NCBI RefSeq assembly: GCF_008330225.1
Contig: NZ_CP042466.1
Coordinates: 2,412,001-2,476,000 of the forward strand
Source of the DNA: Geobacter sp. FeAm09
GTDB lineage: Bacteria > Desulfobacterota > Desulfuromonadia > Geobacterales > Pseudopelobacteraceae
DNA length: 64,000 nt
Direction: 5' to 3'
Below the pieces are notes generated by a model that saw nothing but the letters and a program-made list of their open reading frames with translations, ran no database searches and was not told the origin of the DNA. Position 1 is the first letter of the stretch; each line of letters opens with the position of its first letter. This document shows positions 3,663-40,001 of this stretch, piece after piece. The position numbers and the translations under genes are program-made.

Positions 3663-6305
3663 TCATCTTCTCAGTTCAGACAACACGGTTTTAGCGGCAG
3701 CGGCATCGGCAAAGTCGCCAAGCGTAAGAGCTTTTTGCAATGTTCGCACCGCATTTGCCTTATCTCCGGATTCCTTGTAGGCAAGCGCCAGGTGATAATT
3801 GATCGTCGGGTTGTTCTGGAGATTGACGGCCTTTTCCAAAACCTTCTTCGCATCGCCTACACGGCGGTTCTTCAGCAGGGCATAACCAAGCGTGTCCAGA
3901 ACTCCCGCATTCCCGGGTTCAAGCTTATAGGCCATGATAGCCAGGCGCAGGGCTTCTTCCTTATTGCCATGACCGTCTGCACTGAGATAGGCCAGATTGT
4001 TCAAGGCCGGTACATAGGTATTTGATTTCTCCAGGCAGAGCCGGTATTTTTCGGCGGCTTCCTTCTTTTTCCCCTTCTGGTCGAATATGGAGCCCTGCGC
4101 GTAAATGGCCGGTGCGAAGTCAGGTTTTTTACGCGCGGCGTCGACATACGCCGCCATCGCCTGATCATAATCTTTTTTAATTTCGAATAGTTTGCCCAAA
4201 TAGAGGAGGGCATTCACATTATTGGCATCGACGTGCAAACCATTCTTCATTTCCCTGATCGCGCTGTTGTAATCCTTCTGGCTTTCGTAAACGGAACCGA
4301 GCAACATATAGCCGCGCGCCGAATTCGGATACTTGGTGATGACCTTGCGCGCCTGCTCTACCGCCTTGGCGGTATCCTTCATGGTTGCATAGGTATTAAC
4401 CTTCAGGACAATGCCCGCCTCAGGGTTCAGGGCCTCCACGTCATCGAAAATCTTGATGGCGTCCTTGTATTTCTTATCGGCGACCAGAATGCGCCCCTTC
4501 ATCTCAAGGGCAGGGACATCCCGCGGATTTATCTTGATCGCTTCATCCAGCACATTTATCGCCTTGCCGGTTTCCTTCCGTTTCAGATAATGGCTCGCCT
4601 GCGCCAAAAATGCCGCCGGGATATTGGCATCTTTCGCCTTCTGGTAATAGGCAAGGGCTGAACGGTCGTCGCCCTTTATCTCGTAGAGAGCGGCCAGGCC
4701 GAGCATTGCCTGAGCGTTATGCGGATCATTGCGGTGCAGGGTGCCGTACTCGGCAATGGCTTGGTCGTAATTACCGGTAGCGGCATAATACGTAGCCAGA
4801 CTCTGGTAGGATGCGGGCAGCAGAGGGTCGATTTCTTTTGCCTTTTGCAGGTTTTTGAGGCCTTCGGCCTGCTTGTTTTCGGAGAAAGAGAGTGCCGCCA
4901 GGGCGTTATACAACACGGCATCGCCCTTCTTTCCCGTCAGGCCGGCCCTGAGAACGGACAGCGCCTTGGCATTGTTTCCCTTGCGCATATGGTAGGAGGC
5001 GAGCAGCAGGCGGCTGTTCAGAGAGTCGGGAGCCATCTTGACGGCCGCTGCAAGCTCCATTTCTCCCTCTGAATTTTTCCCGCGGCTGAAATAGTAATAC
5101 CCCTTTTTCTGATAGGCATCCACCATCTTGGGATCGGCTTTTGTCGCCCGGTTCAACTCCTGCATGCCCTCTTCGAACATCCCCTTTGCCATGTAGGCGT
5201 TGCCGAGCATATTGTGGGCGACCGCATCCCTGTCATCCTGTTGCAGCACTTTATTGATCTCGGCAATCGCATCGTCAGTCCGCTTCTGGGTCAGAAGGAT
5301 CGCCCCGGTCATGAGCCGGGCCTGCCGTGAAGTGGGCACCACGTCGAGGATCTTGCGGAATTGGCTCAATGCGCTTTCAAGCTCACCCAGATTATAGTTG
5401 CAGAGCCCGAGAAAGTAATATGCCTCCAAGGTCGGCGCAATCTTTATGGAGTTCTGGAGTTGGGCGGCGGCCTCCGCATACTTCTTGCGCTGGTAGCTCA
5501 CCAGACCCTTCAGGCGATAGCCATCGGCTCTTTTGGGGAACTCTTTGATCAACTCGTCCGAGGCTTTGTCGGCCTTGTCGAACTCCCCCTTTTCAATGCG
5601 GATCAGCCCCGACTTGTAAGCGGCGAGTGTCTCGGAATGGCTGATTGCAAGAATTTTCTGATAAATCTCCAATGCCTTGTCGGCGTTTCCCGCACTCTTT
5701 TCCAGGGCGGCAAGCATGTAATAGGCACGGGGGTTTTTCGGGTCGGCGGCAACGATCTCATCCAGGAGCCCTTTTGCCTTCTGCTCTTTCCCGGCAGACA
5801 CGTAGAGCGCAGCCAGTTCGAGTTTCGTCCGTGAACGCTGGGGGTCTGCTTTGAGGGCCTGCAGCAGGTAGCTCTCCGCGTCGTCGTACTTTTTGTTCAC
5901 GGCGCACGCTATCCCCAGGGTTTCCAGACCCTCGGCGTTGCCCGGATGCTTGCCGAGGTACTGCCCCGCCAGCTTGAAAGCCTCGTCCGGCTTCTTCGAA
6001 GCAATCATCAGCTTCGCCAATTCCAGCACAACGTCATCACGGGAAGGATTCTGTTTCAGAACCTTGGTAAATTCCTTCTCCGCCTGTTCCCGTTTCCCCA
6101 GGGCGGCATATGCCTTTGCCAGTTGGAAACGCGCATCGCTATAGTTTTCATCCTTCTCCAGGGCGCTTTTGAAAAGAACCAGGGCAGCGCTCGGATTGGA
6201 ACTGTTCAGCTGCTTGAGCCCCTCACTGAACAACTCCTCCTTCGATTTACTGCCGCAAGCCGAACAGGCTAACAGGATCAAGGCCACTAAAAATATCCTA
6301 AACAC
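3663..6305 (-). CDS. prsT: PEP-CTERM system TPR-repeat lipoprotein (PrsT-like)
   Basis: 880 residues made almost wholly of tetratricopeptide repeats (for example ALVLFKSALEKDENYSDAR, ARFQLAKAYAALGKREQA). The N-terminal lipoprotein signal (LALILLACSAC-like region, candidate lipidated Cys at 14 or 17) places it on a membrane. Length and architecture match the TPR lipoproteins of PEP-CTERM/exosortase exopolysaccharide loci, whose exact function is not established; scaffolding of polymer export is the usual inference. The start is GTG at 6305, preceded by AGGAGG eight bases upstream. It is the first gene of a minus-strand operon with the sugar transferase, export protein and chain-length determinant. 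Candidate sigma-70 and sigma-54 promoters lie upstream. Confidence 0.88.
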   Translation of the reverse strand: MFRIFLVALILLACSACGSKSKEELFSEGLKQLNSSNPSAALVLFKSALEKDENYSDARFQLAKAYAALGKREQAEKEFTKVLKQNPSRDDVVLELAKLMIASKKPDEAFKLAGQYLGKHPGNAEGLETLGIACAVNKKYDDAESYLLQALKADPQRSRTKLELAALYVSAGKEQKAKGLLDEIVAADPKNPRAYYMLAALEKSAGNADKALEIYQKILAISHSETLAAYKSGLIRIEKGEFDKADKASDELIKEFPKRADGYRLKGLVSYQRKKYAEAAAQLQNSIKIAPTLEAYYFLGLCNYNLGELESALSQFRKILDVVPTSRQARLMTGAILLTQKRTDDAIAEINKVLQQDDRDAVAHNMLGNAYMAKGMFEEGMQELNRATKADPKMVDAYQKKGYYYFSRGKNSEGEMELAAAVKMAPDSLNSRLLLASYHMRKGNNAKALSVLRAGLTGKKGDAVLYNALAALSFSENKQAEGLKNLQKAKEIDPLLPASYQSLATYYAATGNYDQAIAEYGTLHRNDPHNAQAMLGLAALYEIKGDDRSALAYYQKAKDANIPAAFLAQASHYLKRKETGKAINVLDEAIKINPRDVPALEMKGRILVADKKYKDAIKIFDDVEALNPEAGIVLKVNTYATMKDTAKAVEQARKVITKYPNSARGYMLLGSVYESQKDYNSAIREMKNGLHVDANNVNALLYLGKLFEIKKDYDQAMAAYVDAARKKPDFAPAIYAQGSIFDQKGKKKEAAEKYRLCLEKSNTYVPALNNLAYLSADGHGNKEEALRLAIMAYKLEPGNAGVLDTLGYALLKNRRVGDAKKVLEKAVNLQNNPTINYHLALAYKESGDKANAVRTLQKALTLGDFADAAAAKTVLSELRR

Positions 6306-37592: not shown

Positions 37593-37934
37593 TCAAACGA
37601 ACGAAGGGGAACGGGGAGGAGCGCGCGGCGTTAAAAGCCGTAACAGCAGCAGGAGGGAAACGAACGGCACCGTGAGGGGACTGGCCGGCGGCTGGCTTGC
37701 GGGAGGAGCGGCTTGCGGAATCGACCACCCCAGGGCAACGGGTTCATTGCACTGTTTTGCCGGCGCCTGCTGGAGCGGTTTTCCCGTGGGAGGTTCCAGA
37801 ACGGCGCGCGGTGATGGCTTCGGCTTGTGCGGACGTGACAGGTTTGGGACCTTCATCCCGAGGAACAACAGGAATAAAGGCAGGGCAAAGCAAACCAGGT
37901 GCCTGGTCAGGTGGTGCCGCATGGCGTGGTACAT
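37593..37934 (-). CDS. Hypothetical membrane protein, doubtful
   Basis: About 113 residues from ATG 37934. One membrane helix (LVCFALPLFLLFLGMKV) is followed by a Pro-rich stretch and a second hydrophobic run near the end. No family is recognised and no ribosome site is obvious; the second ATG at 37922 is possible. It could be a real small gene of the selenoprotein region or part of a decayed area. Confidence 0.3.
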   Translation of the reverse strand: MYHAMRHHLTRHLVCFALPLFLLFLGMKVPNLSRPHKPKPSPRAVLEPPTGKPLQQAPAKQCNEPVALGWSIPQAAPPASQPPASPLTVPFVSLLLLLRLLTPRAPPRSPSFV

Positions 37935-38015
37935 GACGACAGTAATATCAGATTGTTGCAGCAAAGTGCAACCGAATTGGTCGGCACGCCGTGGGGCGTT
38001 CGCCCCTCTTCCCCG

Positions 38016-38186
38016 CTACTCCTTGCTCCGGGGCAGATCCTTCGCCTCATTCTCATGCTTGGCACCCCGGTCCCCGAGGTCGCAGGAATTGGACATTCAG
38101 GTGGGCACGCCGAGGCGCGGCAGGATAAACTTCTGGAGCACAATCCACACTGCCAGGAATACGATCAGCACTATCAGGTCTTTCAC
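38016..38186 (-). CDS. Candidate selenoprotein: small membrane protein with in-frame UGA
   Basis: From GTG 38186 (GAGGTG five bases upstream) the frame reads MKDLIVLIVFLAVWIVL, QKFILPRLGVPT, then TGA (38099-38097). It continues MSNSCDLGDRGAKHENEAK to TAG at 38016: 56 residues with Sec at 30. One membrane helix fills residues 3-18. Around the UGA the motif is U-M-S-N-S-C, a Sec/Cys pair (CxxxxC-like). A hairpin 23 nt downstream is right for a bacterial SECIS. If the UGA is a true stop, the product would be a 29-residue membrane peptide. The identity of TGA as Sec is inferred, not proven; short Deltaproteobacterial proteins of this shape with Cys in place of Sec would support it. Confidence 0.6.
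38064..38080 (-). promoter_or_regulatory. SECIS-like hairpin in the candidate selenoprotein
   Basis: The minus strand has ACCTCGG, loop GGA and CCGGGGT: seven pairs (one G-T). The loop begins 23 nt after the UGA and contains G. Bacterial SECIS elements lie about 16-37 nt downstream with a G near the loop start, so position and form fit; the fit is by eye. Confidence 0.5.
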
Positions 38187-38444
38187 TCCGTCACCTCGCT
38201 TTTCAGACTCAGGCCGGGCAGGTTGTGTGGGGATCGTATCCTCACCCCCTGCCCAATAATTCAATTTATACTATATAACAAAAAACATATCAAGAATAAT
38301 TCACAAACGGAAACAGGGCCGGCCGACGCCGGGGCAGTGCCTTTGGGCCCACAGGCACCGTGATGGTTGTGACAGTACGCGGGATGGGGTATAGTGTGTT
38401 CGTGGCTTTGCTGCCCGAGCGTCTGTTTCCCGGAGGTACGCCCC

Positions 38445-40001
38445 TTGCTCATATCCCTGTTTTTGACCGTACTCTTGCTGACCGGTGAACTTCAGCACCC
38501 TTGTATGTCCGCGGCGGAAACAGCCACGATGATCGCCCAACCGGCCCGGGGCGACGAGAAGGGAGCCGAGAAGGAGAAAAAGGAGCCGCTCCCGGCTGCG
38601 GAAACACCGGTCGTTACCCGCCACACCATCCGCCTGAAGGGCAAGGAACTGGCCTATACGGCGACCGCAGGCAAACTGCCGGTGCTCAACGATGCCGGCG
38701 AAACCGAGGCCCGGATCTTTTTTGTCGCCTACACCGTTCCCACCCCCTCGCCCAGCGTCAAACGGCCGCTCCTGTTCATCTTCAACGGCGGTCCCGGCTC
38801 ATCGTCGGTCTGGCTGCACCTCGGGGCTGCCGGCCCCCGCATCGTGCGCATGCTGCCCGATGGCAGGATGCCCGCTCCCCCCTTTCGCCTGGATGACAAC
38901 GGCACAACCTGGCTGGAATGGGCTGATCTGGTGTTCATCGACCCGGTCGGCACCGGCTACAGCCGGGCGGCCAAGGCGGATCTGACGAAAAAATTCACCA
39001 CGGTCCAGGGGGATGTGGACTCGTTGGGCCAGTTCATCAGGCTCTATCTGGGACGCTACGAACGCTGGGGCGGACCGTTGTTCCTGGCGGGGGAGAGCTA
39101 TGGGGCCTTCCGCTCCGCCGGGCTGTCCGAATACCTGCTTGAGCACGGCATCGCGCTCAACGGCATCGTGCTCGTCTCCTCGGTCATGAACATGCAAACC
39201 CTCAGCTTCGATCAGGGCAATGACCTCCCCTACCCCCTGTTCCTCCCCAGCTATACGGCAACGGCGTGGTATCATGGCAAGCTGGCGCCCCCACTCCAGG
39301 CCGACCTGGACACGACGCTGGCCCAGGCCGAGTCATGGGCGGCAACGGAGTATACGGCGGCCCTGGTCCAGGGGGATGGCCTGCCCGCCGAAAAACGCCG
39401 CGAGATCGTCGGCAAACTGGCCGAATTTACCGGACTGGATGCGGCCTTCATCGCCAACCGCAACCTGCGTATCGACAACAGAAGCTTCGTCAGGGAACTC
39501 CTCCGCGACCGGCAGCAGATGGTCGGCTATCTGGACAGCCGTTTCGCGGCACAGGACCTGGAACCGTCGAGCCATCGCGGCTTCGACCCCACCGTCGCCG
39601 TCATCCGCCCCCCCTACACCGATGCGTTCAACCGCTATATCCGCGCGGAACTGGGGTACCAGTCCGATCTGGAATACTTTACCCTGGGCGGCGGCATCGG
39701 CCACTGGGACTGGGAGGCGAAGAACAGCTACGCCGACACCAGCGACAACCTGCGCAACAGTTTTGCCAAAAACCCCTCCATGAAGCTCTTCGTGGCTATG
39801 GGGCTCTTCGATCTGGCAACTCCCCACTTTTCCAGCGCGTACACCCTCAACCACTTAGGCTTGACGCCGGCGCTCCGGAAAAACATTTCAACCCGCCGGT
39901 ACCGTGCCGGCCATATGATGTACCTGGACAGCGTCTCCCGGGAGCAGTTGAATCGCGACGTCAAGGAGTTCGTCCAGAGGACGCTGGCTGAAAACGAATG
40001 A
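38445..40001 (+). CDS. Secreted S10 serine carboxypeptidase-like peptidase
   Basis: 518 residues from TTG 38445, chosen because GGAGGT sits 7 bases upstream and a signal peptide begins there (LISLFLTVLLLTGE); the longer frame has a GTG 17 codons earlier. S10 signatures are FIFNGGPGSSSVWLH (oxyanion region), the nucleophile in AGESYGAF, a catalytic Asp in GLFDLATPHFS and His in YRAGHMMYLD. It should remove C-terminal residues from peptides outside the cytoplasm, probably for peptide use. A basic, acidic low-complexity linker (GAEKEKKEPLP) follows the signal. No operon partner is apparent. Confidence 0.88.
   Translation: MLISLFLTVLLLTGELQHPCMSAAETATMIAQPARGDEKGAEKEKKEPLPAAETPVVTRHTIRLKGKELAYTATAGKLPVLNDAGETEARIFFVAYTVPTPSPSVKRPLLFIFNGGPGSSSVWLHLGAAGPRIVRMLPDGRMPAPPFRLDDNGTTWLEWADLVFIDPVGTGYSRAAKADLTKKFTTVQGDVDSLGQFIRLYLGRYERWGGPLFLAGESYGAFRSAGLSEYLLEHGIALNGIVLVSSVMNMQTLSFDQGNDLPYPLFLPSYTATAWYHGKLAPPLQADLDTTLAQAESWAATEYTAALVQGDGLPAEKRREIVGKLAEFTGLDAAFIANRNLRIDNRSFVRELLRDRQQMVGYLDSRFAAQDLEPSSHRGFDPTVAVIRPPYTDAFNRYIRAELGYQSDLEYFTLGGGIGHWDWEAKNSYADTSDNLRNSFAKNPSMKLFVAMGLFDLATPHFSSAYTLNHLGLTPALRKNISTRRYRAGHMMYLDSVSREQLNRDVKEFVQRTLAENE

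Follow-up and report, generated by a model that had tools for sequence, protein, structure and literature searches.

The gene on the minus strand between positions 38016 and 38186 of the window, by which we mean the whole 64,000-nucleotide stretch of Geobacter sp. FeAm09 DNA that was analyzed, is a member of an undescribed and widespread selenoprotein family (undescribed as judged from Table 1 of each of two selenoprotein inventories, PMC9312934 and PMC13188914). From comparison of sequences, we estimate a probability of about 0.96 that its product contains selenocysteine (Sec) at an in-frame UGA. The selenoprotein reading of this UGA, as originally predicted, is supported by a TGA, flanking residues and a hairpin that are conserved in homologues, and by a Sec pathway encoded in the genome.

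The Gene and Its In-Frame UGA

The original prediction described a short frame running on past an in-frame UGA to a TAG, and this frame is confirmed; it lies on the minus strand, which the prediction did not specify (38186-38016), with its GTG start at 38186-38184, the UGA at 38099-38097 and the TAG at 38018-38016. Its translation is VKDLIVLIVFLAVWIVLQKFILPRLGVPT-U-MSNSCDLGDRGAKHENEAKDLPRSKE (56 residues, with Sec30 and Cys35), and an annotation that stops at the UGA would reduce it to a truncated protein of 29 residues. The predicted ribosome site and start are likewise present, as GAGGTG placed 5 nt before the GTG, and purine-rich stretches also occur upstream of the start in aligned homologues. 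The features of the gene, with the basis for each, are the following.

38016..38186, minus strand: gene of the 56-residue selenoprotein, GTG start to TAG stop with the UGA read as Sec (homologues)
38192..38197, minus strand: likely ribosome binding site GAGGTG, 5 nt before the GTG start
38115..38183, minus strand: single helix, residues 2-24, presumed membrane-spanning (AlphaFold2 model, hydropathy)
38097..38099, minus strand: in-frame UGA, read as selenocysteine residue 30 (TGA conserved in homologues)
38082..38084, minus strand: Cys35 codon, partner of Sec in the U-x4-C motif (invariant in the 42 selected sequences of alignment A1)
38064..38080, minus strand: bacterial SECIS hairpin, 7 pairs with a GGA loop (rules published in PMC13188914, from an excerpt; covariation; covariance model)
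38052..38099, minus strand: match of covariance model R1, covering UGA and SECIS (R1 built without the window's genus)

The Sec was also expected to stand four residues before a Cys. The motif is present and the spacing needs correction, as four residues lie between the two (U-x4-C) and Sec30 and Cys35 are five apart.

Homologues Retain the UGA

A first homologue search, using the Cys-substituted protein as the query, matched 53 of 57 related genomes at E ≤ 1; one match (G030, E 0.28, no stop) is probably due to chance, which leaves 52 of the 57, and the best match in each of these 52 holds a TGA. Alignment of the 59 first homologues shows that residues before and after the UGA are conserved, usually in the pattern helix-(I/V)LP(R/K)xG(V/I)xT-U-(M/L)(S/A)xxC. 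Among the 42 of them selected for alignment A1, W14, P23, G26, T29, U30, C35 and R40 are invariant; two diverged copies lacking the Cys (L068 and L069) were omitted from A1 and from the tallies of hairpin geometry, register and recoding given below. Homologues that end at the TGA, named in the original prediction as evidence against it, are not what we observe: in the loci read, conservation covers the TGA, the hairpin and the residues that follow the TGA.

Profile searches at E ≤ 0.001 matched 221 of 277 genomes and 76 of 82 genera in the class, and 166 of 395 genomes and 110 of 246 genera in a sample of the phylum, where up to 24 candidates per genome were scored for the class and 16 for the phylum (4 and 3 in the corresponding selB searches), so that the negatives may be too many, since only part of the first-look candidates was scored. 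With the 17 shared genomes counted once, these searches give 370 distinct matching genomes, and the family may rank with the more widespread selenoproteins of its phylum. All 370 have a TGA in or directly after the match. A second look at the weaker matches covered the 30 weakest of the class and then 64 genomes, made up of the remainder of the class and the 17 weakest of the phylum. All of them showed the TGA within the aligned part except seven, whose aligned part ended early and whose DNA carries a TGA directly beyond it. Its precise position was checked in the DNA of the fetched loci only, those beyond L069 being located by a script that looked for UGA frames, and a TGA stands there in 147 of 147 loci read in DNA (125 unique) and in 20 of 20 outlying loci.

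No Cys, Ser or other sense codon was found at the UGA position in the 370 matching genomes of the phylum. Since the profile has Cys at the Sec column, a Cys homologue should score at least as well as a Sec form. The Cys forms for which the original prediction proposed a search were thus not found in these genomes, and Cys-containing homologues, a usual but not strictly defining trait of selenoproteins, are lacking for this family there. A pattern scan of named genomes that allowed Sec or Cys codons returned two loci, a chance match (L099) and a real member with UGA (L100). The scan says little on other phyla because its pattern is narrow and because near relatives may not be included; it would miss the window gene itself, whose Val codon is GTG. 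Translated searches (tblastn) of plasmid and phage collections gave no match, and viral contigs yielded one member, with UGA.

The outlying members retain the helix and the UGA and differ elsewhere. Four genomes (loci L170, L172, L174 and L183) have two in-frame UGAs, the second within a separate U-x4-C motif and with a hairpin of its own after it (−7.1 to −12.1 kcal/mol, compared with −6.8 to −11.5 kcal/mol for the hairpins of the first UGA). Four further loci (L175, L180, L181 and L182) lack a Cys downstream of the Sec, and in others the gap between Sec and Cys is 3 (L129), 5 (L100, L149, L186), 6 (L173), 7 (L171) or 9 (L176) residues. Helix and Sec thus form the constant core of the family, with a Cys partner that is common but not universal. 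The two diverged copies mentioned above are second copies in their genomes (L068 in G047, L069 in G040) that carry a UGA and a SECIS-like hairpin sequence, with Arg in place of both the Cys and the residue after the Sec, and are possibly decaying or Sec-only paralogues.

Coding Constraint Continues Past the UGA

Changes at codon positions 1/2/3 were counted for 307 pairs of moderately related sequences (L068, L069, L100, L129 and L149 were omitted from these counts and from those of length and charge). The 20 codons before the UGA show 920/374/2605 changes, and the third-position bias persists in codons 1-5 after it (380/47/696), in the hairpin codons (149/302/495) and in tail codons 12-16 after the UGA (538/450/928); the 3' flank, sampled as codons 40-60 beyond the gene, is flat at 4461/4465/4400. 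In all 120 sequences counted, the frame runs on past the UGA for 16 codons or more without a stop, and in the other two frames 159 of 240 starts are open for 12 codons. Comparison of sequences shows that the frame continues through the UGA with a SECIS.

The Hairpin Downstream of the UGA

A seven-pair hairpin with a G-containing loop had been predicted 23 nt after the UGA, and both its coordinates and its geometry proved accurate: it spans 38080-38064 with a GGA loop at 38073-38071, and the stem begins 16 nt and the loop 23 nt past the UGA. Bacterial SECIS elements, by the rules given in an excerpt of PMC13188914, have a stem of 4-16 pairs, a loop of 3-9 nt with a G in the first two loop positions, a loop placed 16-37 nt after the UGA and an MFE ≤ −7.5 kcal/mol. 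The window element fits every one of these published rules (7 pairs, GGA, 23 nt, −11.9 kcal/mol over 39 nt).

Judged from the window alone, the hairpin is no better than chance. At least equal stability was found in 178 of 200 dinucleotide shuffles (77 nt, z +1.10), and synonymous recoding gave z −0.69 (rank 0.23) with the codon usage of neighboring ORFs and z −1.30 (rank 0.095) with a pooled codon table, which includes the SECIS codons themselves. As the window hairpin is unexceptional by itself, its significance comes from the homologues. Across 123 loci, the loop begins 16-28 nt after the UGA in every case, a G is found within the first two loop positions in 120 (3 miss the rule), and the MFE is ≤ −7.5 kcal/mol in 112 (11 miss it). 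Synonymous recoding of the same 123 loci with neighboring codon usage gives a mean z of −1.68, with 118 below zero and 55 at a rank ≤ 0.05.

Pairing was analyzed in an alignment (A3) of 49 of the 69 hairpins that share the commonest register, with the 3 of the window's own genus omitted deliberately and 17 others not included. In this alignment 95.3% of cells are paired, a value that leans high because some of the 17 omitted hairpins had imperfect stems. Double-changed cells number 68 vs. 19.7 in shuffles, and the covariation score of 0.608 compares with 0.208 when shuffled and at most 0.210 when the pairing is slid by 1-3 columns. Counted by pair, double changes do not exceed the shuffled level (4 pairs vs. 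3.6), and two of the seven pairs never vary. The SECIS structure is thus kept through compensatory change in the 49 sequences; all 69 hairpins of the commonest register were tallied as well, each in its best register, which leans towards pairing.

The covariance model R1, built from the same 49 sequences, scores the window element at 56.9 bits with an E-value of 4.9e-14, the next best match in the window having an E-value of 0.77. In the whole genome, with 150 of 1865 candidates scored, the window element is the sole significant match (E 3.1e-12, next best 0.98). An Rfam scan of the region returned two chance matches, far below gathering scores. On the minus strand no promoter or terminator evidence was found, with no terminator-like site in 37900-38460.

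Sec Decoding and the Distribution of the Gene

The original prediction had named absence of a Sec pathway as a ground for doubt, and the pathway is present: the genome has selA (E 4e-184), two selB genes above the cut-off and two high-scoring tRNA-Sec genes. SelA, SelB and tRNA-Sec, whose joint presence we took as the genomic mark of a selenoprotein, therefore occur together. Their genome coordinates are given here for selB and tRNA-Sec.

3339800-3340933, minus strand: selB
3514452-3516341, plus strand: selB
1276813-1276906, minus strand: tRNA-Sec
3341800-3341893, minus strand: tRNA-Sec

The tRNA-Sec near the second selB is also found by ARAGORN. Two selB genes occur in G003 and G005 of the same genus as well.

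Presence of the gene tracks that of selB. In the class, a tally made by hand, with unprinted negatives taken as the complement and related genomes treated as independent, gives 209 genomes with both selB and the gene, 27 with selB only, 12 with the gene only and 29 with neither (odds ratio 18.7, p 9e-15), i.e., the gene in 209 of 236 selB-positive vs. 12 of 41 selB-negative genomes. The phylum sample, counted in the same manner and order, gives 158/195/8/34, with the gene in 158 of 353 selB-positive vs. 8 of 42 selB-negative genomes (p 9e-4); in the taxonomic family to which the window belongs, the values are 56 of 63 vs. 2 of 13. The gene is not needed by every Sec user, since 195 of the 353 selB-positive genomes in the phylum sample are without it.

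The gene was seen without a detected selB in 20 genomes (12 in the class, 8 in the phylum sample), 12 of which have selA; the other 8 show neither selA nor selB, and three of these are drafts estimated at 96-99% completeness (G071, G130, G261). Three of the 57 relatives (G011, G016, G026) carry the gene and selB with no tRNA-Sec over the cut-off, G021 and G055 have selB and tRNA-Sec with no copy of the gene, and in three loci (L028, L031, L034) a tRNA-Sec adjoins the gene.

Relation to Known Proteins

A search with the window protein found no Pfam model over the cut-off (best E 0.027), the PDB yielded no relative (best E 0.38), and no NCBIfam model exceeded its curated cut-off for the window protein, the 42 members of A1 or 10 outlying members. 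The spacing recalls the motif of PrxQ, in which a peroxidatic residue is followed by four residues, a resolving Cys and then an Arg. The family shares with PrxQ/BCP peroxiredoxins, including their Sec forms, the U-x4-C spacing and the following Arg; unlike them, the 56-residue window protein is modeled as one helix with a low-confidence tail and no thioredoxin-like fold. No peroxiredoxin model was over its cut-off, the best being a PrxQ model at E 0.13 in 1 of the 42 members, and the thioredoxin-like peroxiredoxin domain that would place the protein within PrxQ/BCP was not found.

A second parallel, drawn from architecture, is with eukaryotic selenoprotein S (SelS) and with SelK, whose architecture is similar to that of SelS, as these too have a membrane-anchored Sec/Cys layout. 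The window protein is far smaller, its Sec lies next to the membrane and not at the C-terminus, its Cys comes after the Sec and not before it, and its SECIS lies inside the coding region. In an excerpt of PMC3628699, SelS is described as a single-pass protein with an N-terminal helix and a disordered cytoplasmic region, whose Sec and Cys are proposed to form a selenosulfide and to serve a proposed reductase activity.

Among bacterial proteins, the Tso-operon selenoproteins TsoA, TsoB and TsoY, reportedly the subject of work by Haft and Tolstoy in 2025, are also recently described selenoproteins. The U-x4-U motif of TsoB (PMC13188914, Table 1) resembles the U-x4-C motif of the window family. 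The Tso models of NCBIfam were not among the matches of the 42 members of A1 (E ≤ 1) or of the 10 outlying members (E ≤ 0.1). Table 1 of the 119-family inventory of May 2026 (PMC13188914) and Table 1 of an older inventory (PMC9312934) contain no membrane-anchored U-x4-C protein; literature searches returned no title on such a family, and we claim absence from print only for these two tables.

GrdA, an unrelated protein, resembles this family in its past status, as it was long held to be a selenoprotein with no known Cys homologues (excerpt of PMC1794560). Cys homologues of GrdA have since been reported, and all known selenoproteins now seem to have them, according to an excerpt of PMC12013277. 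The same excerpt lists 13 known and no new selenoprotein genes for a Geobacter sulfurreducens strain and indicates that the filter of the 2025 method may drop families without Cys homologues. With 370 genomes and no Cys form among them, the present family would be both an exception to the rule of Cys homologues and a blind spot of that method, as far as the excerpt of PMC12013277 describes them. We incline slightly towards the view that this is an obligate-Sec family carrying out a reaction at the membrane surface that Cys cannot perform, the gene tending to be lost along with Sec decoding and not converted to a Cys form. If true, no Cys counterpart would exist for this selenoprotein family, which homology-based finders miss by design; it offers a test of why Sec is kept. 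The family also adds a membrane-anchored selenoprotein design with no thioredoxin fold and with one or two Sec residues.

Topology, Possible Mechanism and Alternatives

The AlphaFold2 model of the window protein consists of one helix (residues 2-24) and a low-confidence tail, with a mean pLDDT of 69 overall and of 90, 88 and 71 for residues 1-10, 11-20 and 21-30. Over 120 members, the helix has a mean hydropathy of 2.1, and the mean net charge is +2.4 on its C-terminal side and −0.4 on its N-terminal side. By the positive-inside rule of membrane topology, the positive charge of the C-terminal side puts the Sec on the cytoplasmic side, and the short charged tail is probably cytoplasmic. We consider it very likely that this is a membrane-anchored selenoprotein, whatever its chemistry.

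We picture a tiny single-pass inner-membrane protein whose Sec would stand about six residues past the predicted end of the helix, usually with a Cys at a distance of five residues behind it. Comparative evidence strongly supports insertion of Sec at codon 30 by SelB and tRNA-Sec under the guidance of the downstream hairpin. The selenol could then attack an oxidant or sulfur species at the cytoplasmic face of the membrane, Cys35 could resolve the product as a selenenyl-sulfide, and a thioredoxin-type reductase might reduce the selenenyl-sulfide between Sec30 and Cys35. We give a redox role at the membrane surface somewhat better than even odds. Peroxides or persulfides near the membrane would be the first substrate candidates, with metal(loid) binding as a serious rival; that reactive sulfur in particular is the target is doubtful.

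The alternative that fares best keeps the protein a selenoprotein and denies it a redox function: the Sec would bind a metal or metalloid (arsenite, mercury, copper), and the protein would act as a membrane sensor or scavenger. It draws on the ArsR-family gene that lies upstream of some copies with its stop overlapping the gene start (L032, L036, L154, L158) and on those members that have no Cys after the Sec (L175, L180, L181, L182). We nevertheless consider metal binding unlikely. A U-x4-C pair, characteristic of a redox couple, is present in most of the members read, thiol-redox genes are found among other neighbors, and ArsR regulators respond to redox and persulfide signals as well.

Much less probable is that the UGA is read as another amino acid, by Trp or Cys misincorporation, or serves as a recoding site that yields selenium-dependent short and long forms. 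Sec insertion in bacteria is often below 100%, and a truncated product that keeps its helix could persist in the membrane, which makes two products conceivable; misincorporation sits poorly with the lack of any sense codon at the position, where a residue inserted by simple read-through would allow one, and with hairpins that fit the Sec rules in most loci. It is highly improbable that a 29-residue protein ends at the UGA and the 3' conservation serves an RNA role (terminator, regulatory hairpin). In favor of this reading, the 29 codons ahead of the UGA by themselves encode a whole small membrane protein of a commonly found size, and the window hairpin alone is unexceptional. Against it, the third-position bias extends beyond the UGA and disappears in the 3' flank, all 42 selected sequences share Cys35 and Arg40, the frames stay open past the UGA in 120 of 120 cases with no TAA or TAG at its place in the loci read, the gene tracks selB, and the region has no terminator-like site.

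Gene Neighborhood

The neighbors of the family gene, clustered as ORFs by BLAST, with between one and four ORFs per named cluster searched against Pfam, weakly suggest that the selenoprotein is associated in some clades with thiol or reactive-sulfur stress. A convergent cluster of glyoxalase-like, DsbD-type (DsbD/CcdA-type) membrane and redoxin genes occurs at 18-20 loci by one count and 20-25 by another, a Usp gene is near the family gene in 17, a histidine kinase in 7, a rhodanese in 8 and a C_GCAxxG_C_C gene in 11, and an ORF that appears by eye to be thioredoxin-reductase-like follows the L100 copy. An ArsR-type gene is nearby in 12 loci. In four of them it is directly upstream with its stop overlapping the gene start (L032 and L036 in the window's own genus, L154 and L158 in other families), and the other 8 loci hold members of the same BLAST cluster, which lie downstream of the gene at L019 and L156 and some 4.5 kb from it at L100. 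A same-strand ORF ends ≤ 150 nt upstream of the gene in 59 of 125 loci. Contexts differ by clade, so the idea of one conserved operon partner was rejected, and no partner is established.

Several further observations were made on the surroundings of the gene. The ArsR-type proteins (L018, L019, L023, L032, L154, L158) mostly have a Cys just before IWxCL or IWxYL and a helix with PQA(V/T)xSQHL. In the window's genus, the gene is followed downstream by an ORF of 123-148 residues, the L012 copy of which has no Pfam match; in the window this is a 123-residue ORF at 37593-37964 on the minus strand with relatives in four other loci (L010, L011, L012, L027). A divergent ORF of 535 residues lies at 38394-40001 on the plus strand and shows, by eye, GGPGSSS and GESYG motifs, which we take to be like those of serine carboxypeptidases; its cluster is present at only four loci, all of the window's own genus (L009-L012), among the 125 compared. 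The member found on a viral contig (L187, IMG/VR contig IMGVR_UViG_3300037657_000155, classed viral) has both the UGA and the hairpin and is flanked by a phage-like ORF and by HU- and DinB-like ORFs (named by eye), and perhaps marks the edge of a prophage.
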